Below, piece by piece: positions 2,726 to 45,905 of a stretch of DNA of 64,000 nt. Made by a program: the position numbers and the translations under genes. The DNA is from Polytrichum commune (Eukaryota; Streptophyta; Polytrichopsida; Polytrichales; Polytrichaceae): assembly GCA_950295325.1 (NCBI GenBank), contig OX485809.1, forward strand, positions 25,126,144 through 25,190,143. The letters run 5' to 3'. Under the pieces are notes generated by a model, which was given only the letters and a program-made list of their open reading frames with translations, searched no databases and was not told the DNA's origin. The first letter of the stretch is position 1; each line of letters begins with the position of its first letter.

Positions 2726-4680
2726 ATGGCGGCTTCGAATCAACATGCAACCAGCTGCACTATGGTCATCGCCACTTTGGTGGTGGTGATTTGTGCTCTC
2801 ACTGGTAATGCCAAGTTTCAATGCCTCCATCATGCAATTCGTTTCTTCAGGCAGCCACCTGATCTACTTCATAAGGAAATGTTAGTGGATGAATTTCAAT
2901 GCACGATGTGCAATAATATATCATGTGATCGGTATATATTGAAGCTGCTGGTCTGCAGCTGATGATGTGTAGCTAGCTACATTGTATGCTGACGTGTAGT
3001 CCTCCACCACTAGTGTGATGATAATACCCAATTCTTCTTCGAAATTCATATTTCTAACAATTTCATCATGATATGTGGGTTGACTTGTATAAATAGGTGC
3101 GGCTGATGCGTGGTGCAAAGCCGGATTCAAGGACTGCGACTACAACCCCCAGAATGGGTGCGAGACATGCATCAAGACGGATGTGAACAACTGCGGCAAC
3201 TGCGGCGTCAAGTGTCCTACCTACCCTTACAGCACCCCGACTTGCTCCAACTACAAGTGTGGTTACATGTGCAGCCCGGGATGGAAGGACTGCGACTACA
3301 ATTCACAGAATGGGTGCGAGACCGATGTGGGCAAGGACGTGAATAACTGCGGCAGCTGTGGAAACAAGTGCCCGACCTACCCCTACACCACCACCACCTG
3401 CTCCAATGGCCAATGCAATTCCGTGTGCAAGCCCGGGTGGAAGGATTGCAACAAAAACATGCAGGACGGGTGCGAGACCGATGTGGGCAAGGACATGAAC
3501 AACTGCGGTAGCTGCGGCACCAAGTGCGCCACCTACCCCTACACTACCACCGCCTGCAGCAGCGGTGTCTGCACCTCCGTGTGCACCCCGGGATGGAAGG
3601 ATTGCGACGGCAAGAAGGCGAACGGATGCGAGACTGATGTGGGCAAGGATGTGAAGAACTGCGGAGCCTGCGGTGTTACCTGCCCCACCTACCCCTACAG
3701 CATCCCTATCTGCTCCGGTGGCTACTGCGGATACACTTGCACCCCGGGATGGAAGGACTGCGATGGCAATAAGCAGAATGGGTGTGAAACCGATGTGGGC
3801 AAGGATGTGATGAACTGTGGAGGATGCGGCAAGAAGTGCCCCTGCACCGATCCCCACGGCCTACCCATCTGCAGGTATTTTTAAATTCATGTACTCTTTG
3901 GCTATACAGTCGTGTGATTTTTGGTAGGCTTGCCGAATTCGACTGTCAGATTAGGGGAAGTTTTTAGAAACATTCCTACTGGCATGAAAATCATTGTGCG
4001 ACTTCTGCTACCTGCGCCTGAAATGTGTCAAGGAACTGTATCGAATGGCCCATGGATTGCGCATTCACTAACTAGCAATGCAGCTGCTAGTAAGGCATAC
4101 AATCTAGTATCATCAAATCCAAAGAACAAATTCAGCTACACTGGATCACTTGGTGCATGTCCATCTCTTCAATTTGGGCTAGATAGTCAACAAGAGACTG
4201 GATAACGAGCTGCGGTCACGGCGAGTCATCCACCTACTTGAGTTGGTTGTTGGTCTTAACGATCCCTCATCCGAGCGAAGGGCACTTCTAACAACTACCT
4301 TGCACTTCTCTATCCACGCAGAGGACATTTCAGTCATAACCTATGGTTTACATCCATGAGCAGGCCGGTTATGTATTGCTTCTGACCCACTGACCTGACT
4401 CTGCAATTTAGAGCTTGACCTGCTCACATTATTTCTTCGGGAGAGTCGTGAATTGATCTATATATATGCTCAAATTCAATCAATTCTGGTCACAGGAACA
4501 AGTATCAATTTGTTTCACTTCGTGCCAGAACACTTATAGCTGCAAGTTCTACTGGGGGCTTATAGTGGTCATCATGACTAACTTGTAGTGCACTTTGGTT
4601 GATATGGCAGCAATGGAGCTTGCGGAGTGCAATGCAAGAGTGGATTCAAGTACGACAGCTACCAGCAGAAGTGTGTCTGA
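2726..4680 (+). CDS. secreted cysteine-rich protein with five 52-residue repeats
   Basis: Three exons are supported: 2726-2804, 3097-3874 and 4611-4680, with GT..AG introns of 292 and 736 bp. Together they give 927 nt, or 308 residues. Residues 1 to about 29 form a signal peptide with a hydrophobic VIATLVVVICAL core, so the product should enter the secretory pathway. The mature part consists of five tandem repeats of about 52 residues with the pattern C-x-P-G-W-K-D-C, NGCETDVGKD, NCGxCGxxC, PTYPY and C-S-x-x-x-C. The last exon supplies a partial sixth unit (CKSGF) ending in KCV. The NCGxCG spacing recalls STIG1-type and other extracellular cysteine-rich repeats, but family membership is not certain. 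An extracellular or wall role is inferred from the signal peptide only. Codon use is GC-richer than the flanks. Antisense frames over exon 2 are shadows of the repeats. Confidence 0.85.
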
Positions 4681-7684: not shown

Positions 7685-7692
7685 GATCCTTC
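7685..7692. repeat. left target-site duplication of the giant hAT element
   Basis: The 8-mer GATCCTTC directly abuts the left terminus CAGGGTTG and is repeated perfectly at 23930-23937. Eight base pairs is the length produced by hAT transposases. Confidence 0.93.
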
Positions 7693-7779
7693 CAGGGTTG
7701 TCTATCGCGACGTCATGACGGTGTCGTGCCGTCATGTCGTGTCGTGTCGTGACGGACCCCTCCGTCACGGCACAATAGG
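7693..7779 (+). repeat. left terminal and subterminal repeats of the giant hAT
   Basis: After CAGGGTTGTCTAT the end is packed with TGACGG and GTCGTG words, including GTCGTGACGG at 7746-7755 and the opposing CCGTCACGGCAC near 7762. The same words recur at the right end. Subterminal repeats of this kind are usual transposase-binding sites in hAT elements; binding is inferred here. Confidence 0.8.
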
Positions 7780-7977
7780 GTCCACGTAGGGTCAACATAG
7801 GGTGAATGGACTAGGGTGGGTAAAATACTTACCTTCTTGCCAAGGTGGCGTCCTATGTGGCAGAAAACGCCGACGTGGATGTGCATATTTCCCTTGCCAA
7901 GTAAACCATTTTGCCATTGTGTTTATCATTCTGTTAAAATCAAAGTAGAAAAATATGACTAAGGAGGGTGTGGGGCG
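7780..7977. other. left subterminal spacer of the giant hAT
   Basis: Short non-coding stretch between the terminus and the first G-rich array. No gene or clear TATA box was seen. Confidence 0.5.
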
Positions 7978-8957
7978 GACCGCGGGGGGGGGGGGGGGGG
8001 GGGGGCGGGGGCGGACGGGGGAGGGGGGTGGTGCGGACGGCGGAGGGGGGTGGAGCGGACGGACGGGGGGGTGGTGCGGACGGGGGAGGGGGGTGGAGCG
8101 GACGGACGGGGGGGTGGAGCGGACGGAGGGGAGGGGGTGGAGCGGACGGACGGGGGGTGGAGTGGACGGAGGGGAGGGGGTGGAGCGGACGGACGGGGGG
8201 GTGGAGCAGACGGAGGGGGAGGGGGTGGAGCGGATGGGGGAGGGGGTGTGGAGCGGACGGGGGCGGGGGGGTGGAACGGACGGAGGGGGAGGGGGGGGGG
8301 GGGAGCGGACGGGGGTGGGGGGTGGAGCGGACGGACGGGGGTGGAGAGGACGGACGGGGGGGTGGAGCGGACGGACGGGGGGGTGGAGCGGACGGAGGGG
8401 GAGGGGGTGGAGCGGACGGAGGAGGGGGTGGAGCGGACGGGGGCCGGGGGGTGGAGCGGACGGGGGTGGGGCGTGGGGCGGACGGAGGGGGGTGGAGCGG
8501 ACGGGGGAGGGGGTGGAGCGGACGGGGGCGGGGGGGTGGACCGGACGGAGGGGGAGGGGGGTGGAGCGGACGGGGGAGGGTGGTGGAGCGGACGGAGGAG
8601 GGGGTGGAGCGGACGGAGGGGGAGGGGGGTGGAGCGGACGGGGGTGGGGGGTGGAGCGGACGGGGGAGGGGGTGGAGCGGACGGGGGCGGGGGGGTGGAC
8701 CGGACGGAGGGGGAGGGGGGTGGAGCGGACGGGGGAGGGTGGTGGAGCGGACGGAGGAGGGGGTGGAGCGGACGGAGGGGGAGGGGGGTGGAGCGGACGG
8801 GGGTGGGGGGTGGGGCGTGGGGCGGACGGAGGGGGGTGGAGCGGACGGGGGAGGGGGGTGGGGCGGACGGAGGGGTGGAGCGGACGGAGGGGGAGGGGGG
8901 TTGGGAACGGGGGGGAACGCTGGAGCGGACGGGGGAACGCGGAGGGGAGCGGGGGGG
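7978..8957 (+). repeat. G-rich minisatellite 1, GGAGCGGACGGGGG type
   Basis: About 1 kb of degenerate units of roughly 18-25 bp containing GGAGCGGACGG followed by a run of G with A, T or C interruptions. A larger block of about 150 bp is also duplicated (around 8500-8650 and 8650-8810). Long open frames on both strands here are by-products of the repeat. The G runs could form quadruplexes. This copy is subterminal, with no gene identified on its left. Confidence 0.9.
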
Positions 8958-9135
8958 AGGGGAACAACGTGCAATTGCGGCCATATATTTTCTGGCAGTA
9001 GAAATAATATTGCATATTCATGTAGAGGACTTCATTACCTATCCATGGATACTAAGAACTCATTTTTTGAACTTCATATGAATTTTTGAGAGCCAAAAAA
9101 CCGAGACTATGTCCAAACTTCCAAAAAAAAATGTT
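8958..9135 (+). repeat. dispersed conserved segment, copy 1
   Basis: Starts GGAACAACGTGCAATTGCGG and ends near TCCAAACTTCCAAAA. Nearly the same sequence occurs at about 12511-12684 and, shortened, at 15862-16000, each time beside a GCGGACGG array. No coding potential is evident; it behaves as a module shared within the giant element. Confidence 0.8.
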
Positions 9136-9860
9136 TCTGAATTATATAAATATAAATATAAGCAATTGTGAAGAGTCCTTGTGAGAGAATACCATTCATA
9201 AAATTTCACACCCAATCAAAACTTTATTCAATATCAAGTTTACAAATCACGAGTGAATATGAATCAATGTAACTGGATGTGTAGTTTTTATCATCCATAT
9301 TATGGTTGTATTTCATCCGTTAACGTTTATAGAGTCAGATTTACAAAGAAGGGAGTACCATTTTGTTAACATTTAACACGTTTAACATTTATAGTGTGCA
9401 ATATGTGGGGAGTAGAAGAAAGTTAACATTTAGAGATGTTGAGGATCACGTGTACAACCGATATAACTATTGCAATATTGTGCTCAACTTTAGTTAACTA
9501 GATATAACTATAGTTGACTATATTTTATGGCATACCAAAATTAGAATAAATATAGGTAACTGCATTTTGGCAAGACATATCACAAACAACTATAGGTAAC
9601 TTGAACTTAGCACATGGATGTGATAACAACGATGTGAAAGAACGATGTGGCCTCACGAGAGGCGAGAACCTTGGTTAGCCTCCCATAGACTTCTTCTCGA
9701 TTATGGAGCAAAAGCCTCATGGAGTATGAACATTGCACTAAGATCCATAAACCTCATACAATATACAAGTTTTGTATGAAAAAATGATGGCTTTATTTAC
9801 ATCTCCAACGGTTACAAAATTGGTATGATTCAAAATTGTTGCAAAAAAAATTAAAAAAAT
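9136..9860. other. non-coding interval downstream of the kinase-like gene
   Basis: AT-rich DNA with no recognisable gene. It should hold the 3' end and terminator of the minus-strand kinase-like gene, but no poly(A) signal stands out enough to call. Confidence 0.4.
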
Positions 9861-11776
9861 CTATTTTGCAGTGTCACGGAAGCACATTGTCGGGTTAACC
9901 ATGTTGTATGGAGGGGACTTCAAAATGTTCACTACATGTGTGATGGTTGACCTTTCCGCTGGATTGGTCTTCGTCAATGAATCCAATGCTAACTCAAACC
10001 GCATATTCAAGCCATTTGGATCACTGTTTAGCTGAAACAAGGGGGAAGTCGCATCCCTGGCATAAATCTTCTTTGCCAAAGCACCCACTGAGAAGGACTC
10101 CGAGAGAAACGTGTGCCTATGTTTCCGAGCCATCCTCACCGGAGAGGTGGATGTTCCACGCTGCCCTCGTACATGAAATAATTCTGGACCAGCACAGTTG
10201 TATTTTGTTTTGTGCTTGTTCATCTCATCCACTGAATCTCTTCCATAGTTGGAGGGTACATCTTCACCTCCCCAGGATGCCATGCCCCAATCACACACAC
10301 CAATGTAAACCGTGTTATCACGGTCTTGTGGGAAATGCAGCATGACATTGTTGGGATTAAGGTCATTGTGTAACACGTCATGCTTGTGCACTACATCCAC
10401 AATGCACATTAGAGCCCATGCCAAATAAGCTCGATGCCTTCGATATACAACCAACCGTTTCCGTGCTTCAAAGTCTGCCCCAGGCATTTGAAGGATTGTG
10501 CGCTCGTGGGTTTCCGGAACGCTGAAGTCATAGACCCTCATGTTCTTCAAGGAGCCTCCATTCCACCACATCGAATAGGATTCGTATGTTTTTATATTGA
10601 GGTATTGTAGCTTGATTATTCCAGGATGATCTACTGGACACGCCAATGCTTCAATTGAACGCTCCTTTCGGTTCTCCAGACTATTCGTGGCCTTCATGGT
10701 CTTCCCAGCCCACTCTATCCAGCTAGGGATGAATGATGCTCCATGAATTGTGACTCTCCGCACCACTCCGAAGATCCCTTGGAAGATTTCCTTATCCAAG
10801 GCTTTGATCTCCGCATTCCTAGGCAACCATATGACACCCTGCCGGCCCTGAGTGGCAATGTTGTCTGCCATCTGCCTGTCAATAAAAATGGGAAGGTTGC
10901 GGGCGGATGTTCCTTTCGCTGCTATTACGCCTCTTTTCCAATTCTCTAGCTTCATGTACAGCTCGGACTTCCTGCCACTACTATTTCCCTCGCCAGGATG
11001 CAGAGCATCATATGCCATTGTTGGATTGTAGATTGCTTCCCTGGCTTGTTGTTCAATCCAGGTGTCCCAATCGTTCATGCCCCTAGCTTCTTCAAACTCC
11101 GGTCCAGCCGTGGCTTCCGTGAGAATAAGCATCAATTCGTTCCTGACCAACTCTAAACCCTTTGTACCATCATTGAGGTATTTTTTTTCCAAACAAACCA
11201 TGCTGTTATTTCTAAACCACTCCAACAGCACGACCCTACAATGGTTTCGAGCCTCATCGATCCGCGGGTCGCGTTTGCCTCTATTTTTTTTTTCCTCGAT
11301 TGCGAACCTGATACCGCGGACCCCTCCTCCGTCCCTTCCGAAACTGCTGGGCGTTTCTGTACCCGTCTTTCACCATGCTCCGAACCCTGAGGTACATCAC
11401 GTGCAGGGCTCTCCGGTCTTGATGTCTGCCGTGTCGGAGATCGTGGTGGCACGGACTCACCACGAGTGGCTGCATTTATATCTGTGGAACTGCCTGAGCT
11501 TGGTCCCCTTCCTGTTCTCCCTCTAAGGCCACTGTTTCCCCGACTCCCACGTGTTCCACGGCTTCCACGTGTTTGGTTGCCTCCTGAATGACCAACAACA
11601 AAGAACTCTTCGCCAAACCGAAAAAGATCTGGACGTGGGGGACGGGCTGCAGTACTTCCACTTCCGGCATCGCTTCCCGTACCCTCTCCAATATACGCAG
11701 ATGGAGTGCGTTGGAGCCAAGCACGGTGCACCCTCGTATCCTCGTCTTGGTAAGGAGCAATGTCCTCCCCCTCCAT
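9861..11776 (-). pseudogene. protein-kinase-like cargo gene with one homopolymer frameshift
   Basis: Two minus-strand frames form one gene: 11776 down to the A10 tract at 11284-11293, then a second frame to the stop at 9861, about 655 residues in total. The first frame starts with MEGEDIAPYQDED and is a low-complexity Arg/Gly/Ser-rich tail of about 160 residues. The C-terminal part has kinase hallmarks: a catalytic loop HNDLNPNN (HxDLxxxxN), a DWG triad in place of DFG, and an AGPELF motif where the APE motif is expected. The ATP-binding lobe is too diverged to assign. The frame change falls in a mononucleotide run, and both frames read KKK across it. It may be a true mutation, an assembly error, or slippage that keeps the gene functional. 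The TATA box at 11981-11990 and array 2 lie upstream. The substrate and role are unknown. Confidence 0.7.
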
Positions 11777-11980
11777 CGTGAAAAAAACCGCGTGAGTGAG
11801 TGAATGTAGAAATCAGCAAGTGAATCTGGAAAAAAAATTGCGAGGGTTCCCCCACAATTTGCCCTGCCCTCCCAAACCCCCTGAGACCCGCGTGGTGCCG
11901 CTGTCCTTGGGACGGCAACAAGGTCTCGGGTCCCTTTGTGGTGGGAGGAGAGGAAAGTGAGGGGAACTAAAGCCCCACGG

Positions 11981-11990
11981 CTTTATATAG
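11981..11990 (-). promoter_or_regulatory. TATA box of the kinase-like gene
   Basis: On the minus strand this reads CTATATAAAG, about 205 bp before the ATG at 11776. A G-rich array begins about 70 bp further upstream, the same arrangement seen at the other genes of the element. Confidence 0.65.
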
Positions 11991-12059
11991 GCAAAGCGGT
12001 GCACAATCATTATGGGATCCCGGTCAGATTTGACATGGGGCACGAAAAGGACGTATGGG

Positions 12060-12512
12060 GAGCGTGGGAACGCGGGGGCGGACGGAGGGAACGAGTGGGC
12101 GGACATAGGGGAACTCGGGCGGACGGAGGGAACGAGTGGGCGGACGTAGGGGAACTCGGGCGGACGGGAGGGAACGTGGGGCGGACGGGAGGGAACGAGT
12201 GGGCGGACGTAGGGGAACTCGGGCAGACAGGAGGGAACGTGGGGCGGACGGTAGGGGAACGTGTGGCGGACGGGAGGGAACGTGGGGCGGACGGGAGGGA
12301 ACGAGGGGCGGACGGGAGGGGAACGCGGGGCGGACGGGTGGGGAACGCGGGGCGGACGGGTGGGGAACGCGGGGCGGACGGGTGGGGAACGCGGGGCGGA
12401 CGGGAGGGGAACGTGTGGTGGACAGGAGGGGAACGCGGGGCGGACTGGAGGGAACGTGAACGCACGGAGGGGAACGTGGAGCGGACTGGAGGGAACGGGT
12501 TGAAGGGGGGCA
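12060..12512 (+). repeat. G-rich minisatellite 2, GGGGCGGACGGGAGG type
   Basis: About 20 units of roughly 20-21 bp centred on GCGGACGG and GGGAACG. It lies immediately upstream of the TATA box of the kinase-like gene. Open frames rich in Arg, Gly and Pro on both strands are artefacts of the repeat. Confidence 0.9.
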
Positions 12513-12684
12513 GGGGAACAACGTGGAATTGCGGCCATGTATTTTCTGGCAGTAGAAATATTATTGCATATTCATGTAGAGGACTTCATTACCTATCCAT
12601 GGATACCAAGAACTCATTTTTTGGACTTCATATGAATTTTTGAGAGCCAAAAAACGGACACTATGTCTAAACTTTTAAAAAAAA
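12513..12684 (+). repeat. dispersed conserved segment, copy 2
   Basis: Nearly identical to the segment at 8958-9135, including the CATATTCATGTAGAGGACTT and CCTATCCATGGATACCAAGA stretches. It abuts array 2 on the distal side. Confidence 0.8.
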
Positions 12685-12689
12685 GTGTA

Positions 12690-13279
12690 AATGACCGAGT
12701 TCACACTATGGCCGTCCAAGTCGAGAGGCCGTGCGATTGAGTGGCCCAACTTTGTTGAGAGTCCAAAGAAATGAACTGAAAATAGCCAATAAAATATAGT
12801 AAGGATAGCCTTAGTTGGGCATAGTGTGAAGCCTCCAAAGGCCAAGCGCAAAGTCCAAACCTTTGGCCATGAACTCCCACGGCCTCTCGGCTTGGATGGC
12901 CAAAGTGTGAAGCCTCCAAAGGCCAAGCCCAAAGTCCAAACTCAAAGGAGCATGCCACTTTATTCCTTGCTCAAAATAACCCCTCCAATCTAACGGCCAA
13001 GATCTTGTCAATGATTGATTATTTTAATGAAAAAAAAATTCGGCCTCTCAACGGAAGTTTGGGTTGAGCATTTTGCTATACCCAAACTTTGCTCGAGAGG
13101 CCGAACTCTTGGCGCCATAACTTCCTAAAAGTGTTGCCACCTAGGCTCTTTTGGAGGCGACATCCTTTGGACTTCGGCCTCTAGTGTGAAGGCCGAGAGG
13201 ACGGACTTTGGGCATTTCAGCATTTTCATTGGTCCAAATGTTGAACCTCTCAAAGTTTGGCCATATTGTGAACCGGCCC
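12690..13279. mobile_element. nested MITE-like inverted-repeat element
   Basis: The right end, read inward, is GGGCCGGTTCACAATATGGCC, and the left end has the diverged match TGACCGAGTTCACACTATGG. TTA follows the right end, but the left flank is not an exact TTA, so the duplication is decayed. The interior holds several short palindromes built on GAGAGGCCG and CCTCCAAAGGCC. The ends resemble the PIF/Harbinger-like MITE at 54212-54565. Confidence 0.55.
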
Positions 13280-14344
13280 TTAGATTTGCAATACATGTCT
13301 TATTCTTTTTTTGGCACAAATTGAAAATTCAAATTGAAAATACAACCAACTCAGCCGAAACAGCGCAGCCTAAGTGGAAATCTATAAATAATGCTCAAAT
13401 GAGGCCTATCCTTCCAAGTAGGGACTAAGTTGCTACGGATCACAATAAGACCTTTGACCCCCCAAATCAAATCAAATTTGTTAAGAATGTCATGGTAGGC
13501 CACGTCCGACCCTTTTTCCAAGTCCCTAAGCATATGTTTCCATTCAATCCTCCCATAATTTGATTTGTAATACATGTCATAAAAGCTAATGCAATTATTG
13601 TTTTGAAGTCTACCATCAAATGATATGTAAGATCGTATGTTCACATGTGGTTGGTTCTTTTTATGTACCAGTTTAAGCCAATACTAAAATAAAATAAGCC
13701 TTATTCTATAAAATCTAGTGACACTACCATACAAGTTAGTAGAGATGTTGTATATATTTTTAAATTATTCTATATATTTACATAACTACAACTTATAATT
13801 CTGTGAAGAATATGTATACATAATACAACAAAGTTCAAATCAATACTTCTTTTGTGCACTCACATATACTCATACGGATTTAGTATAGTGCACCCCCCCC
13901 CCAATTGATCACTAATGTGGGCCACATTAAATTTAAGCCCACACCAATTCCCTAGTTTAATATCAATGTGGACCAGATTAATTTTCTTTTCTATAATGTT
14001 CTAATTTGTGTAAGGTGTTGGTAAGATATCTTTATAAAGCCTATGGGAACTCGGGGGATGCACTCTACATTATGTTTGAGAATCACGTGCGTTCATGACC
14101 CCTTCTAAAAACCCCAATGTATACCATAAGTTATATGTCTAAGTAGAGATTGTGCCAACTTGAAGTAGTCCTCGCGATTTGCGAACGTTTATCTTTCGCT
14201 GTAGGCATCGTAAAAAAAAGCGGGTGGGTTCGTTGGAAAGCTGGGAACCTAAACCCTCAAACCATGTATGGAAACATTTCTACATGAGTGTGAGAACAAA
14301 ACAATGGCACATATGTGTAGCAATTTGGAATGACGTAGACGTAG
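13280..14344. other. intergenic interval inside the giant hAT
   Basis: AT-rich, with a run of C near 13895. No gene recognised. Confidence 0.4.
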
Positions 14345-14374
14345 GGTTTAGGGTTTAGGGGTTTAGGGTTTAGG
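14345..14374 (+). repeat. short TTTAGGG interstitial telomere-like repeat
   Basis: Four or so imperfect copies of TTTAGGG, the plant telomere unit, stand directly before the 82-bp tandem repeat. This is too short to be a telomere. Confidence 0.7.
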
Positions 14375-14690
14375 GTTGTGAAACCATATAAACCACAAAG
14401 GTTGAAACACAAATATGTACTTTGTTGAATTAAAATGACATTCGAATGCGTGTGGGTTGTGAAACCATACGAACCACTAAGGTTGAAGCACAAATATGTG
14501 ATTTGTTGAATGAAAATGGCATTCGGATCCTGAAATGCGTTGTGAAACCATATGAACCACAAAAATTGAAACACAAATATGTACTTTGTTGAATTAAAAT
14601 GACATTCGAATGTGTGTGGGTTGTGAAACCATACGAACCACTAAGGTTGAAGCACAAATATGTGATTTGTTGAATGAAATGACAACCCAT
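14375..14690 (+). repeat. 82-bp tandem repeat with a dimeric higher-order pattern
   Basis: Units start at 14375, 14456, 14539 and 14620, each opening with GTTGTGAAACCATA. Units 1 and 3 resemble each other more than their neighbours, as do 2 and 4, so the true period is a dimer of about 164 bp. Confidence 0.85.
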
Positions 14691-14897
14691 CCAATATAGA
14701 AGCTTCAAAGAGGTATCAAAGAGGTTTCCAATGCGGGTGTCGGGGGCACTTTTTCAAAAAGTGCAACTAACTTTTTGACTTCACCAACTTTCTTTTTATT
14801 CCTATTGTGTTGTCTTTATCTTACCAACGAGAATTGGATCCTCTACATCTTGGATTACATCAAATATTGTAAATTTCATAAAGTCCTTTGAGCTCAG

Positions 14898-14907
14898 TAT
14901 ATAAATA
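14898..14907 (+). promoter_or_regulatory. TATA box of the acidic-protein gene
   Basis: TATATAAATA, followed by the ATG at 14947 only 40 bp on. No G-rich array adjoins this promoter, unlike the other three genes of the element. Confidence 0.65.
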
Positions 14908-14946
14908 GAGCATTTAGACTCATACATATAACGAGGGTAGAGTATC

Positions 14947-15501
14947 ATGGATAGGATGGGAGAGGAGAGAGACATGTTTGAGGGTCTAGGATGTGATGAG
15001 GAGATAGCAAATTTAGGTGAACCCGATATTCCATTCAATCCATCACCCGAGCTTGAGAGAGATGAGAGAAGTGCTAGAGATCGATTTCGTGATGACTATG
15101 TCATGACCCCCTTTTCACAATCTACACAAGCATAGAAGTTGAGGGCGGAGGAGGACCAACGACGATATGCGGCGAAATTCGAGATCAATGCAGTGGAGAA
15201 TGACCAAATAAAAAGCGTGGGTGAAGACCCAAATGATGTGGTTGATTTAAGCGTGGATATTTGGGTGAAGCCCGGGGATGTGGATGACAATTCAATCGAC
15301 ATTGAAGATGTCAAGGTAGCAGGAGAATCTTCAAGGACTTTGTCTTTTCGTAAGAAGAGGAGAGGATTATCGCCTCATCGGCTATCATTGAAGGAACGGA
15401 TGAAAGACCGAACGATTAGCTATATTGATTTACTTCGACCGAATCCTCTCCCAAAAATGGACCCTCGACGGAAGCCACAAGCATCTACGAGGTTGCCATG
15501 A
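14947..15501 (+). pseudogene. small acidic cargo gene with one in-frame TAG
   Basis: One frame runs from the ATG at 14947 to the stop at 15499-15501, interrupted only by TAG at 15133-15135. The total is about 184 residues. The first 62 are acidic (DEEIANLGEPD, ELERDER), and the rest is mixed charge with a basic patch (FRKKRRGLSPHR). No known family was recognised. A TATA box at the right distance supports transcription. The TAG may be a disabling mutation or may be read through; its following codon AAG does not match the strongest leaky contexts. The function and its link to transposition are unknown. Confidence 0.5.
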
Positions 15502-15861
15502 CGGAAGTTAAGTTGACGGAATGAAGTGGAATATTAAATCGTGCATGGTTTGTTCATGTATGTGATTTATAAAAGGCATTTATACCGTCGTCGCAATAAT
15601 AAAGTTATTACTTGTACAATATGTTGTACCACTTCTATGATATATATTTTTTTATAAAATTTCAACCAACCGCTTATTATTGCATACTTCTATGGGGTGA
15701 TAATTTGTTGGTCATCATACTACATTAGTTACTTTGTTGCTTGAGGGATCCTTCATTAGTTTTGTGTGAATAAGTACACCGGTTATGATATTTAGTGTCA
15801 CATATATTATTTGCGAAGGGCCTAAGTTAGATGGGGTGCGGATGGGGGGACGCGGGAATGT
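15502..15861. other. intergenic interval inside the giant hAT
   Basis: AT-rich 3' region of the acidic-protein gene. Near 15833-15857 there is a short stub of G-rich array (GGTGCGGATGGGGGGACGCG) before the third conserved segment. No gene seen. Confidence 0.4.
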
Positions 15862-16000
15862 GCAGTAGAAATATTATTCCATATTCATGTAGAGGACTTC
15901 ATTACCTATCCATGGATACCAAGAACTCATTTTTTGGACTTCATATGAATTTTTGAGAGCCCAAAAACCGAGACTATGTCCAAACTTCCAAAAAAATTAA
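15862..16000 (+). repeat. dispersed conserved segment, copy 3
   Basis: Begins GCAGTAGAAATATTATTCCA and matches copies 1 and 2 through CCAAACTTCCAAAAA, lacking their first 40 bp or so. It has G-rich array on both sides. Confidence 0.8.
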
Positions 16001-16013
16001 AAAATGCAGATTC

Positions 16014-16433
16014 AAGGGGAGTGCGGGAGCGGACGGATGGGAACTCTAAAGCGGACGTAGGGGAACATGGAGCGGACGAGAGGGAACGTTGGAGCGGACG
16101 AGAGGGAACGTTGGAGCGGACGTAAGGGAACATAGGGCGGACGGGGGGAACGCGGGAGCAGACTGAGGGGAACATGGGGCGGACGGAGGGGAACGAGGGG
16201 GCGGACGTACGGGAACGGGTGTGGACGTAGGGAACGAGGGGGCGGACGTAAGGGAACGGGTGCAGACTCGGACGGGGGGGGGGGGAACGGGTGCGCACGG
16301 GGTCGGGAACGGGTGCGGACTGGGGGGGAATGGGCGCGGACGGTAGGGAACAGGTGCGGACTGGAAGGGGAACGGGCGCGGACTGGGAGGGGAACGTGTG
16401 CGGACTGGGGGGGGAACGGGGAGCGGATGGAGG
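16014..16433 (+). repeat. G-rich minisatellite 3
   Basis: Degenerate units of 19-25 bp with GCGGAC, GGGAACG and G runs. It ends within a few bases of the TATA box at 16436 that precedes the RING gene. Confidence 0.88.
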
Positions 16434-16435
16434 GG

Positions 16436-16443
16436 TATATAAG
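16436..16443 (+). promoter_or_regulatory. TATA box upstream of the RING gene
   Basis: TATATAAG at the edge of array 3. The first credible ATG (16909) is about 470 bp downstream, so a leader with an intron is likely but could not be defined. Confidence 0.5.
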
Positions 16444-16908
16444 TGGAGGGGACCACTTACATGCCCCACTCCACTCCTTGTGGGCGCCCGGACGACCCTC
16501 CTCTACTATAGAGTGCGGGATAGCGGGGTGCTCGGAGGAGTTTAGGATCCCTTTTTTGGGATTTTTTTATACTTTTTTTACTGACCTGTTTGTAGGTGTG
16601 ATCCACGTGGACCCGTTCCCTTGTGACGTGGCATATTGCCTTTTTGGCATATTCCTTGTGACGCGCCCAGTCAACTGGCCTCTGCGTGAGCGCTGGTAGC
16701 GGGGTGCTCGAAGGGTGTGCTGAATTTTTGTACTTTAATTTTTAACGACATTTTTGAACTAATTCCATAGCAACACTATTTTGAAGTGTATGCTTGGATG
16801 TTTTGTAGCACTATTATGAAGTGCAATTAGTAATTTAAAAATTAGAGTTCTAGATTAGAATTAGAAACTACAATTTGGGTGGATACGGCAAGTGAAGGAT
16901 TTCCAGAC

Positions 16909-18730
16909 ATGGCAAGTGGAGGATCAGGTTGTCACAGATCACATGTACGCAAGGCCGCTGGGTTGGAGTGGGATGTTTATGATGACAACACCCAAAAAGC
17001 CAGGGCAGGTTGGGAGAATGTACCACAACCGTGGTCAGCGAAGACTGCACTTTGATCGGTTGAAGGCTTTCCTCACTTTGATCGGTTGTGGTCAAGACCT
17101 TGTCACGAGCGACATTGCAAGGCCATCAGTGCGAGTTATATGCAGCTTGATGACGTGGAGGAAAAATGGAGATTCCTAACGATACTTAGAGATATCTCCA
17201 ATTTGGATAGATGGCCCAAGAGTGCAATTCCAAAGTCGGTGGCGTGTATGATGTATGCGGAGCACGTGTTGCGAGTTAAGGTGGATTGGCCAAGTTTGGC
17301 TGCTCTGCATAATCAAAAATTTGGGGGTATTGGAATTGCATTCACTAAATGCACAGTTCCAGATATTCCATACACTCCCGTTCCGGAGTGGTTCAGGAGG
17401 AATCCTCGACTAGTGGATGAGCCTGGGGCCCCAATTCCAGAGGGTCGGGAACCAAAAAAACCACGTAATCGTAAACGACCAGCCAATGACATGGAGATAG
17501 CCATCGAGGAGGCGTTTGAGCATATGGATGAGGGCATGAAGGCAAATGTCGAGGTCAACAACCTGATCAACAACGTGGTTAACGAGGTCCTAGACGAGGT
17601 AAACCTTGGTGAACTTGGAGCGGACCCGATAGAGAGCAGAATGGAGGAATTGCGTAAGCAACATGCGTTGGAAATTCGTGAGTAAAACGATAATTTTCGA
17701 GTTGGAAAATCGAGTTGCAACACTTACGATGGGGGAGGCTAGCAGTTCAAGTAGTACACCACTTAACCTTCAGTCTTTGGAAGCAGAGAGGGACGCAGCT
17801 TTACAAGAGGCCAAGATTGCAAAGTCACAAGCTCTGGAAGTATGTATGAGGAATGAAGTAATGCGAGGAAAGATAGAGGCTTTGCAAAAGGAGGTGGTGG
17901 ACATTCAACAACAACTTTAAGTGTTCAATGAAGTGGTTGTTGATCACAAAGCCAAGATTGGCGGACTGGAGGAGCAGAATGTAAGGTTGAAGAAATTCCT
18001 GTTGGATGCGATTGTGGTGTGCAAGAATATGAGGACAAGCACATTGCTTGCTATGGCCAAGGCTCGTCAATTTGAAGCTGAGTTTGAGAGCATCCAGAAT
18101 GAATGGAACCGCAGTCAGAGAATGCGGAACATGATGCTCACGTCATGGCCAGAAGATGAGCATATGTACCCTAGTAGGTGGGATATAACTAATGAGTGGA
18201 CATTGCCAAACGGGAGCATCGATTGGCGTCAAGTGACCGACCCAGATCACCATTGGGATGTGATCCAAGTGCATGAATATCCATTCCGCATGAGGGGTGA
18301 GTTGTTATGGCCAAATCCACATACAATGGTCTTCGACGGAACCACGTGTGCGATTTGTCAATCTCCATTTGGCCCGGAAGGATGCTATCAAGTTGGATCA
18401 TGTGGGGCCCAATTCCATCCACAATGTCTAATATGGAATATGATCAAGAAACGCCAATGTCCTCATTGCAGATCACCCTTCCACCCTCGTTTGTACCTCC
18501 AATTTGGCCTTCGGGATTACATGCCTAACGACTGGGTATTAAAGCCATGGGACTTTCCCTTCAATCTTCAAGAGTTTAATGGGGAGAATGTTGAGTGGAG
18601 TTGGTTATACAATTGTGCCAAGGTTGAGCTATGGCACGAGAACAGAGATGGCGACTGGACACGGAATGCACGTCAAATTTTATATGTTGCAGACGAGTTG
18701 TATCCCAACAAGCCCCCCGATCATGCTTGA
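16909..18730 (+). pseudogene. coiled-coil/RING-finger cargo gene, interrupted
   Basis: A series of plus-strand frames makes one protein-like track of about 600 residues. It begins MASGGSGCHRSHVRK at 16909, meets TGA at 17053-17055, continues in the same frame to 17685, shifts frame between 17663 and 17685, meets TAA at 17918-17920 and runs on to the stop at 18728-18730. The middle is a Glu/Lys/Gln-rich coiled coil (ELENRVATL, LEAERDAALQEA). The C-terminal third contains a RING-like zinc finger: CAIC, then SCGAQFHPQC, then CPHC. RING fingers usually recruit E2 enzymes for ubiquitin transfer; that role is inferred from the family. Three interruptions point to a decayed copy, although GTGAGT near 17680 could be part of a short intron. 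No hAT element known to me carries such a gene. Confidence 0.6.
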
Positions 18731-18803
18731 AAAGATTTTTGTACCAAACTCTTGAATGGCATTGGGATACAACCAGCAGATAATTAAAGAGAGGCATTCA
18801 GCC

Positions 18804-19158
18804 TCCTTAGTACAATGCAGCAGGTCTCGAATCAGTATCGGAGCATGATTTGGAAGGAGATGCAGATGACATGCCTACGGAACGGGATCCGAGATATGAA
18901 TTGCAGTTAGAGGTGGGGTACCACAAGAACAGGCTGCAGTTGGCTGCAATTGATGCACTCTTGCATAGAGTTGCGGATGATGTGGTATTGAGATGGCTAA
19001 ATCGTGGGCCTAGACCACGTAATGTCGTTCCATTGTCTCCTGGTAGTCGTCCATACCTCACCCATGGAACAACGCGAAGCATGGAAGCGGGGGAATCATC
19101 TCGAGCACAACGAGGATCTATTTCAGCTAGAATAGACCTCGATTCATATTCGGATTAG
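18804..19158 (+). CDS. small ORF or last exon downstream of the RING gene
   Basis: An open frame ends at 19158 and extends back to an acceptor-like TTAG at about 18803, giving residues such as ERDPRYELQLEVGYHKNRLQ and a Ser-rich end. It may be a terminal exon of the RING gene or a separate small gene. No family recognised. Confidence 0.35.
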
Positions 19159-19857
19159 GCATTTTTGTACCATGTTTAGAAAGTTGTATAGGAACGGAGG
19201 AAGACTTTGGACACAATGAACATATTTCATGTTCAAAGAATATGTAATATAAAGAGGATTTACCGACAAGTTGTCATTTCTAAGATCGTGTAAAAGATAG
19301 CATATGGATGCCACATGTTTTAATGTTATTTGAAACTTTTATAAACTTATTTGAATATTAGTAATTCATATGATAGTCTAACCAAAAGTACTATTGACTA
19401 CATAGTCAATATTGAATACCACATAAAGATATAATTATATAAAACGGATAGAAAGGTCCTCAAAAAGAGGATGTCACCAACAAAGCATGTACAATCGAGC
19501 AATAGGGAATTGCAATATTTATAAAAGCATTTTCTTTAAGAAGCTCAATAAATAAACATAAAACTCCATTCACAGTAAGAATAATACAAAATAATAATTA
19601 ATAAAGGCATAACATGTTGTTGGAGATTAATTGCAATGCTAAGTTGACAACCATATTGTATTTTAAAAAATTTAAAAAACATGCAATAAATAATTTTATT
19701 ACTATAATAAAATGATACAACTTCGAAGGTAACGTTCGCTTTGTGGTCTAAATGTCTTACCGAAGGCCCTAAGGTTGTAACTTGTATCAATTTTGACGTA
19801 AGTAATAAATTATGGGAGTACGTGGGAACACGAAAATACCACATTTGTGCAAAACCA
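19159..19857. other. convergent intergenic interval
   Basis: AT-rich DNA between the plus-strand RING region and the minus-strand transposase gene, where both 3' ends should lie. No gene recognised. Confidence 0.45.
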
Positions 19858-22800
19858 TTACGTTCGAATCCGTACTGTGGGATCATTTGCTTCGACACAT
19901 CTTGGGTCCTCTTCAGACTCGTCTGTGCTGCAATCATCATCCGTTTGGAGAGTCGCGCTCCGAAGATGCAACTCTCGGTCACGTTGTGAGAAAATTATCT
20001 TCTTGGTCGGCCGGGAGCCCTCTGCATCATGTATGCCATTTTCATCTAGATGTGGTCTACCCTCATCTTCATTGTAGTCTTCAGCAGTAAACGGAAGCGA
20101 TCTTCCCTGATACCTCTTCCTAGTACGTTTGACACCTCTCGTAGTTCTCTGACGCCCTCCACCCGTACCACGACTTGAGTGCACTTCATCTCTACTTCCA
20201 TCTATAAAAACATCCCCCGTTGTACTTCCGCCTCCAACTCCAAGGCCACCTGTTCCATTGGATTGACTATGTGAAAGTGAAACTGATGCGGACGGAATTG
20301 CAATTGGTATGTTCTCAACAACATGTCGACGAACAGATTGACGACGTGGCGCCTCAGTAGTAACATTTCTTGAAACATTGTGTATAGCAACCAAAGTAGC
20401 ACCCACCGTAGTTGCACGTGAAACACCCAATCTAGAAGTATTGGCAATACTTCGAGTGAGAGGACGACGTTGACCTTGTGCATGCACTTGCACCGTAGAG
20501 GTGGATGCAGTTCTTTGAAGAGCACGGAATCGAGTTGTAGGTATTTCAGGAACATTGGGCGTTTGATCTTCTACACGATGGTTGGATATGAGGGAGGCGT
20601 CTATGGATTCAGAATGTACTCGGGCTGGAAGTGGATCCTGTTGAACGTGCGTTGGCTCATTTGCGGGTAGTACATTGTCACCTTCACCAAAAGAAAGAGA
20701 ATCGCTCCGAGGTTGCAAGGAATCTATTTCAATTCCTACATTCTCACTTGCCCTCGTAGCAACATTATGGTCAGGGCGAAACCCTTGTCCAGTGTGGAGA
20801 GTTTCAAAAGGCGGTCCTCCAATAGACCCCTCATGATCATCATGCATTCCGTCGTTATGTTGGGGGACATCCGGTTCATCAAAATCAAACACCCCAAGGT
20901 TTCCATCACCACCATTGTCATCCTCATCTTCTGAATCATGATTCTCGGAATCGAGGTCATCCAAATCAAAGTCGATGTCATCAACATTGTTGTCATCATC
21001 ATTTCCGGCCCTATCATTTGGATCCACGTCATCTTCTTCGTCAAGGTCATCGTCAGAATGGACCTCATTCAATTCGTACCATTGCACAGGTCTTGGGCCC
21101 CTCCGATGTCGAATGAGCCTACTATTGGTATATATGTAGACGAGGTCCTCAGCACGACTATGCTTCAAGCGATTGCGACTCTTGTTGTGAACATATGAGT
21201 ATATGCTCCAATTGCGTTCACATGCGGATGCGGAACATACTTGTGCAAGGATACGTCTTGCTATTGTTTGGAGGGCTTTAGCTCCACCTCCCATTGCATC
21301 CCACCATTCATGGAGAGGTGCGGCATGCACGCTCGGGTCAGTAGAATCAGCAAAAGGCCCTCGATTTTCAAGGAAATCTTGGTACTGGTGGAGGATTTGG
21401 ACATAAGTGTCCTCATCTTGAGCAAGCCTGCGAAGAACTCGATTTAGGATTATCCTCGAATTGTCATCCTCATGGAGTGGGGCCCAACCACGTAGAAGCG
21501 GATTTAACATCGCTCCAGCCCAATGTAGATCATTCAACATCAACCTCCATCTATTTTGAAACGTTAGCATAGCATTTGCAGCAAGCTCAGGGCTTAAGCG
21601 AAATGGAGGTTTACTGAATCCACGAATATGGGTTTGTAAATCATGCATGACCCTCCAAGCCATTCCCATTGCAGGCGCCTTGCCATCAAATACACGAAGA
21701 GCTTTAACAACCGGGATCACCATATACAAGAAATTTTCGCACGTGTTCCAGAATCCATCAGAACGTATAAAGCTTCGCACAGCAGAGCCCTTCATGTAAG
21801 AGGTGCGAGATCTCCTCCTCATATCACGCATTAGAGTAGGCCAATCCTCATCAACCACCATTCTTTCCAAAGCATTGCGTACTTGGAGAAGACGTTCTAT
21901 CATGATGAAGTTTGTTGCAAAACGGGTCTCTACAGGTAGGCGGAGTGAGAGATTTGGTGACAACCTCTGGAATATAGCTTGAGAAACATGATGGTTTTTA
22001 ACAAATACACAAATATGGCGTGCTTTTTTTACCAACTTTTTCACCCATTCCTCCTTCCCCCAATCTTCTAAGAGGAGATCTAGGCAATGTGCAGCACATC
22101 CTTGAAAATATAGATCGGGATTTGCTCGAATCAAGTCGCGAGCAGCGGAGGCCATAACTGGGGCATTGTCGGTGCAAACTTGGACCACATTATGTCGACC
22201 AACCTTTTCCACAAATGGTTGAATTTGAGCAGCAACGTAGACATGATCCTTGTGATTTCCCGTGGTGTCAATGGTACCCAAGAAAACGTCTCCCTTTGTG
22301 CCACATTGAAGAACGTTTAGGAGAGGTCGGTTTTGCACGTTGTCCCATCCATCACAACATAGTGTAACGCCATATTTGTCAACGGAATTCCCCAGCTTCT
22401 CCTTCACTTGCCTATCTAGGTCAACATTTTTATCAGTTAACAACTTCGTACGGATGGCATTGTACGATGGTGGTGTGTAGGCTGGCATTCGATGACGGGC
22501 AGTTTCACGCACAGCATTAACAAATGCAGGATGTCTCACAATGTTGAAAAGAATGTTAGCTTCATAAAAAGCCGTTGCCCATGCTTTATCAAGGAGTTGT
22601 TTTGTTGACACATTGAACCCCTCCGTTATGTTGAGTTGACGTAGTTCACGAGGAGGTGTGCCATATATCACAACATCAGATTGTTGAGTGGATTGGGACA
22701 TAAGCAAAGGCTCTGTTTCACTAATTACGGAGTCCATTATAATAGGCTCCAGAGGTACAATATCTGGCACCGGAGAGTCCTCATTTACAATGCCTACATG

Positions 22801-23043
22801 TAAGGGCACAATGCCTCCGCAATGTTCAAACAAGACCCTAATATGCGGGGGAACCATCCTACATGTGGAAACATCACAAGCACCCCCTACAGGAGGTCTA
22901 TAACCAAGGTGGGCCAACATTCTATTTCCTCGGTAAGATATGACGAACGGGCAAAACCTACATTTAACCTGCCTTTGTGATTTACCGGGAACCATCCCCT
23001 TATCCTCGTACCAATGATCCCATGCATCATTTCGGCGTGGCAT
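19858..23043 (-). CDS. hAT-family transposase of the giant element
   Basis: Catalyses cut-and-paste transposition of the element in the nucleus. From the ATG at 23041-23043 the frame is uninterrupted for 1061 residues. I chose this ATG because the sequence just upstream is a 3' splice site (TTTGCAG then GTTTTG), so the few further upstream residues are probably intronic. Domains: a BED-type zinc finger at about 7-65 (CRFC, LAHL); an RNase H-like core with DGW at 231-233 and TDNAP at 291-295 giving two catalytic Asp; a CAAHC motif at 316-320; and a C-terminal hAT dimerisation region at about 595-640 with Glu609 in ACERNWS. This layout fits the plant DUF659/hAT group, usually about 700 residues. 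The extra 420 residues are a disordered, strongly acidic tail followed by a Ser/Arg/Thr-rich end, which is unusual. The gene reads inward from the right terminus. Confidence 0.92.
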   Translation of the reverse strand: MPRRNDAWDHWYEDKGMVPGKSQRQVKCRFCPFVISYRGNRMLAHLGYRPPVGGACDVSTCRMVPPHIRVLFEHCGGIVPLHVGIVNEDSPVPDIVPLEPIIMDSVISETEPLLMSQSTQQSDVVIYGTPPRELRQLNITEGFNVSTKQLLDKAWATAFYEANILFNIVRHPAFVNAVRETARHRMPAYTPPSYNAIRTKLLTDKNVDLDRQVKEKLGNSVDKYGVTLCCDGWDNVQNRPLLNVLQCGTKGDVFLGTIDTTGNHKDHVYVAAQIQPFVEKVGRHNVVQVCTDNAPVMASAARDLIRANPDLYFQGCAAHCLDLLLEDWGKEEWVKKLVKKARHICVFVKNHHVSQAIFQRLSPNLSLRLPVETRFATNFIMIERLLQVRNALERMVVDEDWPTLMRDMRRRSRTSYMKGSAVRSFIRSDGFWNTCENFLYMVIPVVKALRVFDGKAPAMGMAWRVMHDLQTHIRGFSKPPFRLSPELAANAMLTFQNRWRLMLNDLHWAGAMLNPLLRGWAPLHEDDNSRIILNRVLRRLAQDEDTYVQILHQYQDFLENRGPFADSTDPSVHAAPLHEWWDAMGGGAKALQTIARRILAQVCSASACERNWSIYSYVHNKSRNRLKHSRAEDLVYIYTNSRLIRHRRGPRPVQWYELNEVHSDDDLDEEDDVDPNDRAGNDDDNNVDDIDFDLDDLDSENHDSEDEDDNGGDGNLGVFDFDEPDVPQHNDGMHDDHEGSIGGPPFETLHTGQGFRPDHNVATRASENVGIEIDSLQPRSDSLSFGEGDNVLPANEPTHVQQDPLPARVHSESIDASLISNHRVEDQTPNVPEIPTTRFRALQRTASTSTVQVHAQGQRRPLTRSIANTSRLGVSRATTVGATLVAIHNVSRNVTTEAPRRQSVRRHVVENIPIAIPSASVSLSHSQSNGTGGLGVGGGSTTGDVFIDGSRDEVHSSRGTGGGRQRTTRGVKRTRKRYQGRSLPFTAEDYNEDEGRPHLDENGIHDAEGSRPTKKIIFSQRDRELHLRSATLQTDDDCSTDESEEDPRCVEANDPTVRIRT

Positions 23044-23270
23044 GACTTCAACAAAACCTGCAAATACAAACAAGTTAGAGCAAGTAACTTTGATCGCATA
23101 CTAGGTCCTGTTCAAGAGTGCCACAAGGGCAACCCTAATTCACAGTCACTAGATTGGACAAAGTATCCTCTGCATTCGGGTCTCACGCATTCAATCATCA
23201 CTCCTCAAAGGAGAATCAAAAGACTTGAGACACACTATGTCAGTGGAGGCAAAAATGGCACCTTGAACCC

Positions 23271-23280
23271 TCAATTTATA
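23271..23280 (-). promoter_or_regulatory. TATA box of the transposase gene
   Basis: Minus strand TATAAATTGA, about 230 bp before the ATG, with a leader intron implied by the acceptor at about 23057. Array 4 begins within 15 bp upstream. Confidence 0.65.
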
Positions 23281-23289
23281 GTATTCGAA

Positions 23290-23697
23290 TCGGACGGGGG
23301 AGCGGACGGGGAGCGGACGGAGGGGGGGGAGCGGACGGGGGGGCGGACGGAGGGGGGGGAGCGGACTGGGGGGCGGACGGGGGAGTGGGGGGGAGCGGAC
23401 GGGGGGGCGGACTGGGGAGTGGGGGGGGGAGCGGACGGACGGGGGGGAGCGGACGGGGGAGCGGACGGGAGAGGGTGGTGAGCGGACGGGGGGGGCGGAC
23501 GGGAGAGGGTGGGGAGCGGACGGGGGAGGGTGGGGAGCGGACGGGGGGGCGGACAGGGGAGGGTGGGGAGCGGACGGGGGGGCGGACGGGGAAGCGGACG
23601 GAGGGGGGGGAGCGGACGGGTTGGGGACGGGGCGGGGAGCGGGAGCGGACGGGGGGGAACGTGGGCGAACGGGGGTTGGGAACGGGGGCGGACGGGC
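23290..23697 (+). repeat. G-rich minisatellite 4, GGGGGAGCGGACGG type
   Basis: Units of GGAGCGGACGGGGGGGCGGA type, closest in wording to array 1. It is immediately upstream of the transposase promoter and about 230 bp from the right terminus. Confidence 0.9.
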
Positions 23698-23828
23698 TCT
23701 AGTAAATTTTTCCCCACTTTACCTTTACTTTGCTGACATGTCATCACACGTGGACATTGTAAATCCTACGTGTCCGAATTGGGTTAATGTAATTACACAA
23801 AAAAATCGGTAAAATTCAAGTCCGTCAG

Positions 23829-23929
23829 GATAAAGACAGCATCCGGCATAATGTCGTGACGGATATGTGTCGTGACGGCACGACATTATGCCGGGATTAC
23901 CCTCCGTCACGACACAATAGACAACCCTG
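23829..23929 (-). repeat. right terminal and subterminal repeats of the giant hAT
   Basis: Contains a 16-bp perfect palindromic pair, CCGGCATAATGTCGTG and its complement, separated by a spacer that repeats GTCGTGACGG. CCGTCACGACACAATAG follows, then the terminal ATAGACAACCCTG. The words match those at the left end. Confidence 0.85.
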
Positions 23930-23937
23930 GATCCTTC
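23930..23937. repeat. right target-site duplication of the giant hAT
   Basis: GATCCTTC, identical to 7685-7692. Confidence 0.93.
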
Positions 23938-36887: not shown

Positions 36888-37677
36888 AATCCCGAATTGA
36901 TGGAGGAGATTTACAATAGTGATGTTGATGCAAGTAGTGACTAATGTAGTTATAGGATTTAGGATTTAGAATTCGGTATGCTATTTTTTGGGTTTGATTC
37001 AAACAATTTTGAGGTTTTAATTTTTTATATATTTTATTATAAAAGACGAAAGTTTTTTATGAATACCCATGTTGTTTAAGGGTAAGTTTGATTGCCAAGT
37101 ACTAAAGGCTACCTAGGTGCATGATCAATGTTCAATAATGTAGTCTTCAATGCCGTTCGAGCGCAATTCGGCTCTTGAAAATATATTTTGCTCAAAACAA
37201 CCCTTGAAATCACAACTCCAAATTGAAAATGAAGACGTCACTTAAAGTCCTCAATATAATATGCCCGCCGAAAGAGCCATGAACATTGCAACTTCTGGGG
37301 GTATTCCAAAGAAATTGAGGTTTTCCATTTTGATCGTCATACTTACAATGAATTGGATAAAATTTATATGACATAATGTCACACTTTTGAATAGAACACC
37401 TTGATATTATCACCAAAAACTTTGAAACCAAATTCTATGGATTTAAGGGCTAGTCATGGTTCTCAAATTTTCAATACTATGGAGTTGTATGTGCCACTTG
37501 TACTATAAGTTTGTCAGATTAATGTTATTATGTCAAGTATAATATATGAAATAAGATTTAATGTAAGAGTTTGTCAGATTATTGTGCATTTGTCATGTAT
37601 AGCATATGAAATCAGAACTACAATAAGCGATTGTCAAAACTAATATTCAAATCTTCAAAGAGTAGACAAATCAAATC
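36888..37677. other. non-coding interval with 59-bp repeats, left flank of the retrotransposon
   Basis: At about 37508-37625 two units carrying GTTTGTCAGATTA, TTGTCA and GTATARYATATGAAAT occur 59 bp apart. Similar units lie inverted at 47820-47945 and about 49320-49410. No gene. Confidence 0.55.
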
Positions 37678-38010
37678 TGTCACGGTATGCGGCGTCGACG
37701 GCCGCACCTTATCCGTTGGATTTCATTCATCTAGACTTGGATGGATGAATCTAGATGTGGAGAGGAAGGCTCTTAAGTGAGGAGCCTCCTCCTTGGCTTG
37801 GCATTCTTGCCAAGTCAAGTCTTGTGAGTTAGTGTGTGGAGAGAGCTTGTGTGAGGTGTAGATTGCATGATTTTGTAATAAATCTTGAGTTTTTCTTCTC
37901 CTACTTACACTCTTGGATTCTCCCTTGGTGGAGTGAGAGATAGCTTGACTAATTTGTGTGCATTTGAAGAGATTTAGAGCTATTGTGAGTGTTCTACTAT
38001 ATTCCTTCTC
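37678..38010 (+). repeat. terminal block B, 5' copy
   Basis: Begins TGTCACGGTATGCGGCGTCG and is 333 bp long, the same length as the 3' copy at 45906-46238. It ends TTCCTTCTC, after which the two copies share nothing: here ACTTGGCAAG follows, there block A follows. A 5' copy of block A is absent. Confidence 0.9.
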
Positions 38011-38278
38011 ACTTGGCAAGAATGCTTGATTCCTTCTCTTTTCTTCAAATCTTGAGCTACAACATTCAAGCAAGAGTGTGAGGACAAGTGGTGGCGGGAT
38101 TGTGGAGTGGAGAACGACAAACATCGCGGATTAGCGGAGCAACAAGAAGAAAAATGTTGCTTGTGAAGTTTACACATCATTTTGAATTATGGTGCAGGTT
38201 GCCTTTGACCATTTTTCTCTTTGTACCTGGATACTAATTTTTGGGTTGTTGATTCGGTGACCATCCCATTGTGGGTTT

Positions 38279-41092: not shown

Positions 41093-41098
41093 CAGCCG
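41090..41098 (+). promoter_or_regulatory. in-frame TGA between Gag-Pro and the methyltransferase
   Basis: TGA followed by CAG CCG in an uninterrupted frame on both sides. Readthrough is inferred because the downstream part lacks an initiator before motif I. The context is not one of the strongest known leaky UGA contexts. Confidence 0.5.
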
Positions 41099-45903: not shown

Positions 45904-45905
45904 GC

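Follow-up and report, generated by a model that had tools for sequence, protein, structure and literature searches.

The sequence considered in this study, a stretch of 64,000 nt from Polytrichum commune (contig OX485809.1; hereafter the window), contains at positions 7693-23929 a cut-and-paste transposon of the hAT superfamily, identified as such because of its inverted ends, the 8-bp duplication that flanks them, and the transposase encoded between them. Its 16,237 bp, measured between the two copies of the duplication, also hold a kinase-like gene, a gene for a protein with a coiled coil and a RING-H2 finger, and four G-rich arrays. The element is very probably one copy of a family of large multigene hAT transposons. 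Sequence comparison strongly supports the view that genes of the kinase and RING-H2 types accompany transposases of the same kin repeatedly, the proteins being about 36-55% identical.

Ends and transposase of the element

The duplication, GATCCTTC, is perfect over 8 bp, the length characteristic of the hAT superfamily, and flanks both ends of the element (7685-7692 and 23930-23937). Immediately inside it are the short terminal inverted repeats likewise expected of the superfamily: CAGGGTTGTCTAT at 7693-7705 on the plus strand and its partner at 23917-23929 on the minus strand, which agree at 13 of 13 positions. Given the ~2e9 position pairs in 64 kb, and assuming equal base frequencies, the chance of encountering 13 + 8 perfect bases is about 5e-4. 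The left subterminal region (7693-7961) contains GTCGTG/CGTGACGG repeats and the right subterminal region (23698-23929) contains GTCGTGACGG repeats, and two 13-mers, GTGTCGTGACGGA and TGTCGTGCCGTCA, are common to both regions, with identical orientation relative to the ends. The window has four copies of GTCGTGACGG, all of which adjoin the ends of the element. The ends might conceivably derive from unrelated insertions, the unit between them being an accident, and both ends are indeed known from only one copy. However, the perfect 13-bp ends and 8-bp duplication, the 13-mers common to the subterminal regions, the hAT transposase inside, and the confinement of the array motif to the unit all speak against such an accident, which I regard as exceedingly improbable. 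The initial annotation of this DNA had proposed a single hAT unit with an intact transposase, and both parts of that proposal are borne out.

The transposase gene (minus strand, 19858-23043; open reading frame without the stop codon, 19861-23043) runs for 1,061 codons plus stop with no in-frame interruption. It is the only one of the four genes uninterrupted in the window copy, which is probably still able to make transposase. The protein matches two Pfam domains, DUF659 (PF04937; 8.1e-34, 116.9 bits against a cut-off of 34.7) and, near the C-terminus, Dimer_Tnp_hAT (PF05699; 2.5e-10, 40.4 bits against a cut-off of 21.4). Residues D231, D292 and E609, which I take to be the catalytic D, D, E triad of hAT enzymes, are invariant across 12 aligned sequences. 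Pfam found no BED-type zinc finger in the transposase, but a cysteine-rich N-terminal stretch is conserved nonetheless.

In-frame stops raised the question of an alternative genetic code, with TAA and TAG read as glutamine. I rejected it because the transposase has no TAA or TAG in its 1,061 codons, as compared to 42 instances of CAA or CAG.

The kinase-like and RING-H2 genes and their relatives

The kinase-like gene lies on the minus strand at 9861-11776, on the evidence of Pfam Pkinase, of a check of its start codon, and of tblastn with two related proteins, P0051 and P0053. When these are matched to the window, the N-terminal part falls in one frame and the catalytic part in another. The Pkinase scores of the window gene (28.0 bits) and P0051 (28.2 bits) fall under the cut-off of 31.7, which is exceeded by four relatives (P0079, P0102, P0122 and P0131). 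An alignment was made of 38 sequences, the window's and those of 37 of the 84 kinase matches, and constraint on the kinase was judged from residues conserved in it, not from codon comparison. Four residues (Lys223, Glu240, His334 and Asp336) do not vary at all, and three more (Asn341, Asp360 and Gly362) are at least 90% conserved. A profile search against solved structures gave three weak and partial matches, two to FUS3 sequences and one to a calcium-dependent kinase. One relative, P0098 (53% identical), is named from a metagenome-assembled genome (MAG) of the lichen fungus Gyalolechia and may have come from either the fungus or its alga.

The coiled-coil/RING-H2 gene lies on the plus strand at 16909-19155, on the evidence of PF13639 and of tblastn with P0138, P0144, P0135 and the RING protein of the contig L001 (described below). 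The score for the RING-H2 finger (PF13639, cut-off 27.3) is 28.2 bits for the piece in the window and 36.9 for L001, with P0144 (22.2) and P0138 (24.1) under the cut-off. The predicted protein is a probable E3 ligase.

The annotation had described a cargo of kinase, RING and acidic-protein genes. The first two stand, but it missed that both are broken in this copy. The RING gene is dead here and the kinase gene is probably dead as well (sequencing error could account for single frameshifts in homopolymers, less easily for stop codons), and any helper functions would therefore have to come from other copies. The acidic open reading frame (plus strand, 14947-15501) contains an in-frame TAG at 15133-15135. 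Relatives of it were not sought, and its membership in the gene set of the family is unsupported.

Protein searches returned 50 matches to the transposase, 84 to the kinase, and 56 to RING, the query in the last case being a 269-aa piece (full-length RING proteins were beyond the length limit of the search). Three transposase homologues bear plant names and are 27-33% identical to the window protein, which, together with the TTTAGGG-type repeats described below, suggests an origin in the green lineage. Two transposases and two kinases come from contigs of exactly matching size (P0005/P0079, 15,563 bp; P0034/P0110, 6,480 bp), and there are four such pairs of kinase and RING (302,499, 559,682, 350,579 and 727,345 bp). 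Sizes that differ by 1-100 bp, amongst contigs of at least 5 kb, occur three times for transposase/kinase, twice for kinase/RING, and never for transposase/RING. Dividing those counts by 200 gives the number of exact coincidences expected by chance, about 0.015 for transposase/kinase and about 0.01 for kinase/RING. The identities of the paired proteins to those of the window run in parallel: 55% for the transposase P0005 and 50% for the kinase P0079, 45% for the transposase P0034 and 36% for the kinase P0110.

A scan of genome contigs with the transposase found three loci, L001-L003, of which only L001 is informative. The same scan with the kinase gave no matches, and viral contigs had no match to the transposase, kinase or RING alignments or to the array and end patterns. 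L001 (CADCWO010000266.1, 6,291 bp), the best of the relatives, contains the C-terminal part of a transposase, an uninterrupted RING-H2 open reading frame of 855 aa, and a G-rich array at the end of the contig. Its transposase is 51% identical to that of the window by BLAST, 53% over 642 aligned codons. At the level of DNA, eight stretches match the window with an E-value of 0.01 or better, all of them in the transposase, RING or array: four that belong to RING, to its coding part or to the C-terminal end of the transposase, one long stretch in the transposase (74% over 777 bp), and three in the array, the best of these to array 2 (79% over 150 bp). No match in this comparison fell in the intergenic spacers. 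The proportions of nonsynonymous and synonymous differences (pN and pS) between L001 and the window are 0.31 and 0.76 for the 642 codons of the transposase, and 0.29-0.40 and 0.71-0.83 for three pieces of RING (155, 251 and 97 codons). The two quantities are given instead of their ratio because the synonymous sites are saturated.

L001 is filed under a Synechococcales MAG, L002 (a hAT-like match in several pieces) under one of Halorubrum, and L003 (a match spanning 65 residues) under one of Lachnospiraceae. The three loci are hAT-related and apparently eukaryotic, and I read their placement in prokaryotic MAGs as eukaryotic contamination.

These comparisons strongly support the view that the transposase and RING proteins evolved under constraint at the protein level and that the kinase retains its catalytic residues. 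Because of this, and because they recur with related transposases, the kinase and RING genes appear to be residents of the element, as the annotation held, and not random captures. The occurrence of transposase, RING and array together in L001 and the two transposase/kinase size pairs point the same way. It might be supposed instead that the kinase, RING and acidic sequences entered a hAT by capture or invasion and are irrelevant to its life, as in ToxhAT, which is described as a composite (PMC6737239). The broken state of RING and kinase in the window copy and the presence of a fold-back repeat inside the element would fit such a history. The recurrence of the same genes with diverged transposases, under constraint and in company with the same array, does not, and I judge the history of capture to be quite unlikely.

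The G-rich arrays and their possible function

The four G-rich arrays of the annotation are present, all on the plus strand. Array 1 (7962-8963) contains 34 copies of GCGGACGG and has no gene assigned to it. Array 2 (12066-12510; 12 copies), the closest to the array of L001, is upstream of the kinase gene, array 3 (16019-16435; four exact copies) is upstream of the RING gene, and array 4 (23291-23697; 19 copies) is subterminal and upstream of the transposase gene. (Array 4 was counted as 23285-23697, its repeats beginning at 23291.) The 70 copies of GCGGACGG in the window are all on the plus strand and all inside the element, 69 of them in the arrays and one at 20288, within the transposase gene. 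Dense arrays of a motif in one orientation in noncoding DNA, the pattern typical of VANDAL elements, are thus present. In 1000 draws from a first-order Markov model, arrays 1-4 had on average 1.5, 0.7, 0.4 and 0.9 copies, with maxima of 7, 4, 3 and 5. Array 3, the weakest, exceeds its maximum by one.

TATA-like boxes are found next to three of the arrays. That of the transposase gene (23275-23280, minus strand) is about 10 bp from array 4, that of the kinase gene (11982-11989, minus strand) is 76 bp from array 2, and that of the RING gene (16436-16442, plus strand) follows array 3 immediately, at 0 bp. In L001, the RING gene has one array unit directly ahead of its TATA box. Since the element contains 43 TATA-like strings, counting both strands, the boxes by themselves mean little; what counts is their placement beside arrays and gene starts. 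The annotation had credited each cargo gene with its own TATA box or array, and for the kinase and RING genes both are found. The acidic open reading frame has a TATA-like box at 14898 and no array. The ratio of observed to expected CpG is 1.35-1.49 in the arrays. For comparison, it is 0.56 in the DNA outside the element and 0.29-0.91 in those parts of the element that are neither arrays nor subterminal regions.

Each of arrays 1-3 has beside it a copy of a block 135-159 bp long (8976-9134, 12530-12688 and 15862-15996). The copies are 94-96% alike, and the block is absent from the rest of the window.

How might such an element work? The transposase would bind the terminal repeats and move the unit. 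The arrays of GCGGACGG/GGGAACG, in one orientation near both ends and before the promoters of the transposase, kinase and RING genes, would constitute a shared control site, read by a protein of the element that would protect the promoters from DNA methylation and maintain their activity. A precedent is offered by VANC proteins, which act on same-orientation motif arrays in VANDAL elements and counter silencing (PMC5735166, PMC10398659). The RING protein, as a putative E3 ligase, and the kinase would act on host proteins of silencing, repair or the cell cycle so as to favor transposition. By analogy with VANDAL and VANC, then, the arrays may be shared control or anti-silencing sites, a proposal that I make tentatively and rate somewhat below an even chance. 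Roles of the RING protein and kinase on host proteins are put forward with less confidence than that. For the explanation taken as a whole (multigene hAT family, array mechanism and helper roles), which I consider the best available, the case for and the case against seem to me about equal.

Ac-type hATs possess subterminal repeats that bind transposase. The main rival therefore accepts the same multigene hAT but takes the arrays to be repeats of this kind that have spread inward as well and have no role against silencing. Array 1 lies 270 bp from its end of the element and array 4 about 230 bp from the other, and the use of subterminal repeats by hAT enzymes is described for Kat1. However, the repeats of GTCGTGACGG, shorter and different, lie nearer the ends, arrays 2 and 3 are internal and adjoin TATA boxes, and L001 has its unit before the TATA box of RING. 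I consider binding sites for transposase a real but less likely account of the arrays than a control site. Less likely again is that the arrays are ordinary minisatellites, expanding by slippage and without function. The variable number and spacing of their units would suit minisatellites, as would the block beside three of them, recently copied within the element. Against this, L001 keeps the array unit at 79% similarity over 150 bp despite saturated synonymous sites and unmatched spacers, and in the window as in L001 there are arrays or units ahead of TATA boxes.

Several observations weigh against the multigene, array-controlled element that I favor. No VANC-like protein was found in the element. 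Array 1 stands without a gene and the acidic open reading frame without an array, and the high CpG ratio is less telling than it appears, since the unit of the arrays itself contains CpG and the subterminal regions reach 1.09 and 1.31. RING is interrupted by a pair of in-frame stops (TGA at 17053-17055 and TAA at 17918-17920) and two frameshifts (one between 17529 and 17684, the other at ~18700-18757), and the kinase gene has one frameshift, near a run of T at ~11281-11292. The order of genes is not fixed: RING runs in the same direction as the transposase in L001, whereas the two are convergent in the window. What suggests that kinase and transposase are linked is the equal size of their source contigs, and in the four long contigs (300-727 kb) the kinase and RING genes may sit in different copies. 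Finally, there were no transposase/RING pairs on contigs of identical size, in a search whose length limit left out full-length RING proteins.

Neighboring sequences and known systems

Within the element, fold-back repeats (12700-12754 with 12856-12911, and 13039-13105 with itself) are perhaps a nested small transposon. Upstream of the acidic open reading frame, five telomere-like units of the TTTAGGG type (14342-14377) are followed by tandem repeats of 81/164 bp up to 14684. Rfam gave no matches. Outside the element, the window contains at 3093-3884 an open reading frame of cysteine-rich tandem repeats (4.6 copies of a 156-bp unit) and at 37677-46204 a Ty3/gypsy-like retrotransposon, the two ends of which carry 300-nt repeats that are 98% alike. 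Its single long frame, interrupted by TGA at 41090-41092 and TAG at 42365-42367, encodes two recognizable domains: a cytosine methyltransferase (PF00145, 48.1 bits) and, at the C-terminus, a PHD finger (38.4 bits). Gypsy elements with Dnmt3 have been described in Klebsormidium (PMC5890265).

The usual picture of a hAT element is a transposase between two ends. With Ac, Tam3 and Gulliver the window element shares a transposase with DUF659 and dimerization domains, short inverted ends, and an 8-bp duplication. It differs in its length of 16.2 kb, its kinase and RING genes, and its motif arrays adjacent to promoters. Gulliver of Chlamydomonas, at 7,144 bp, has the longest consensus of plant and algal hATs in one survey (PMC6027215). 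The annotation overstated matters in remarking that the known hATs have, for the most part, no gene but the transposase. ToxhAT of fungi is a hAT-like unit of 14.3 kb with eight genes, inverted ends of 74 bp about 92% alike, and a described origin from at least two transposons (PMC6737239). It resembles the window element as a large multigene unit, but its genes are different and it is described as a composite, whereas the family considered here shows kinase and RING repeatedly in company with transposases that have diverged. Histone H3 has also been described as cargo of a hAT (PMC6710886). Amongst the TET+ DNA transposons of fungi is hAT7 of rust fungi, with a TET/JBP gene and 7-bp duplications, and IS3EU elements combine a transposase with an alpha-kinase gene (PMC12730594). 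These resemble the window element in their recurrent helper genes, IS3EU in pairing transposase with kinase and hAT7 in being a hAT. The differences are that they are fungal, that the kinase is an alpha-kinase instead of the Pkinase-like protein of the window, that TET/JBP is found in place of RING, and that the duplications of hAT7 are 7 bp. Multigene hATs therefore have precedents, in ToxhAT and hAT7, and the set of kinase and RING is the variation. A hAT with this set was not found in the literature searched, which is weak evidence of absence because most subscription journals lay outside it. The word hAT has no match in the available part of a review of giant eukaryotic transposons (PMC6431247).

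The arrays find their closest parallel in VANDAL and Kaonashi/KIU elements, which contain several genes and dense tandem arrays of one orientation in noncoding DNA, upstream of or between the genes (PMC5735166, PMC10398659, PMC13317346). I considered whether the window element might itself belong to the VANDAL type and rejected this because its transposase is hAT, not Mutator-like; it is at most a possible analogue. VANDAL elements have the motif YAGTATTAY and a VANC protein, and no relative of VANC was found in the window element. It is possible, though on present evidence rather doubtful, that the green lineage contains an undescribed group of giant multigene hATs with a regulatory system of their own. 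In these, conserved arrays near the ends and ahead of each main gene would be read by a protein of the element to evade silencing, and a kinase and an E3 ligase, both resident, would divert host silencing or repair to the element's advantage. If kinase, RING protein and conserved motif array have indeed stayed together in a hAT family through a long divergence, then cut-and-paste elements can hold a lasting set of helper genes, and the array unit and the two proteins provide concrete, testable handles on how such elements meet host silencing. Such a group would be an independent counterpart, amongst hATs, of VANDAL and VANC.

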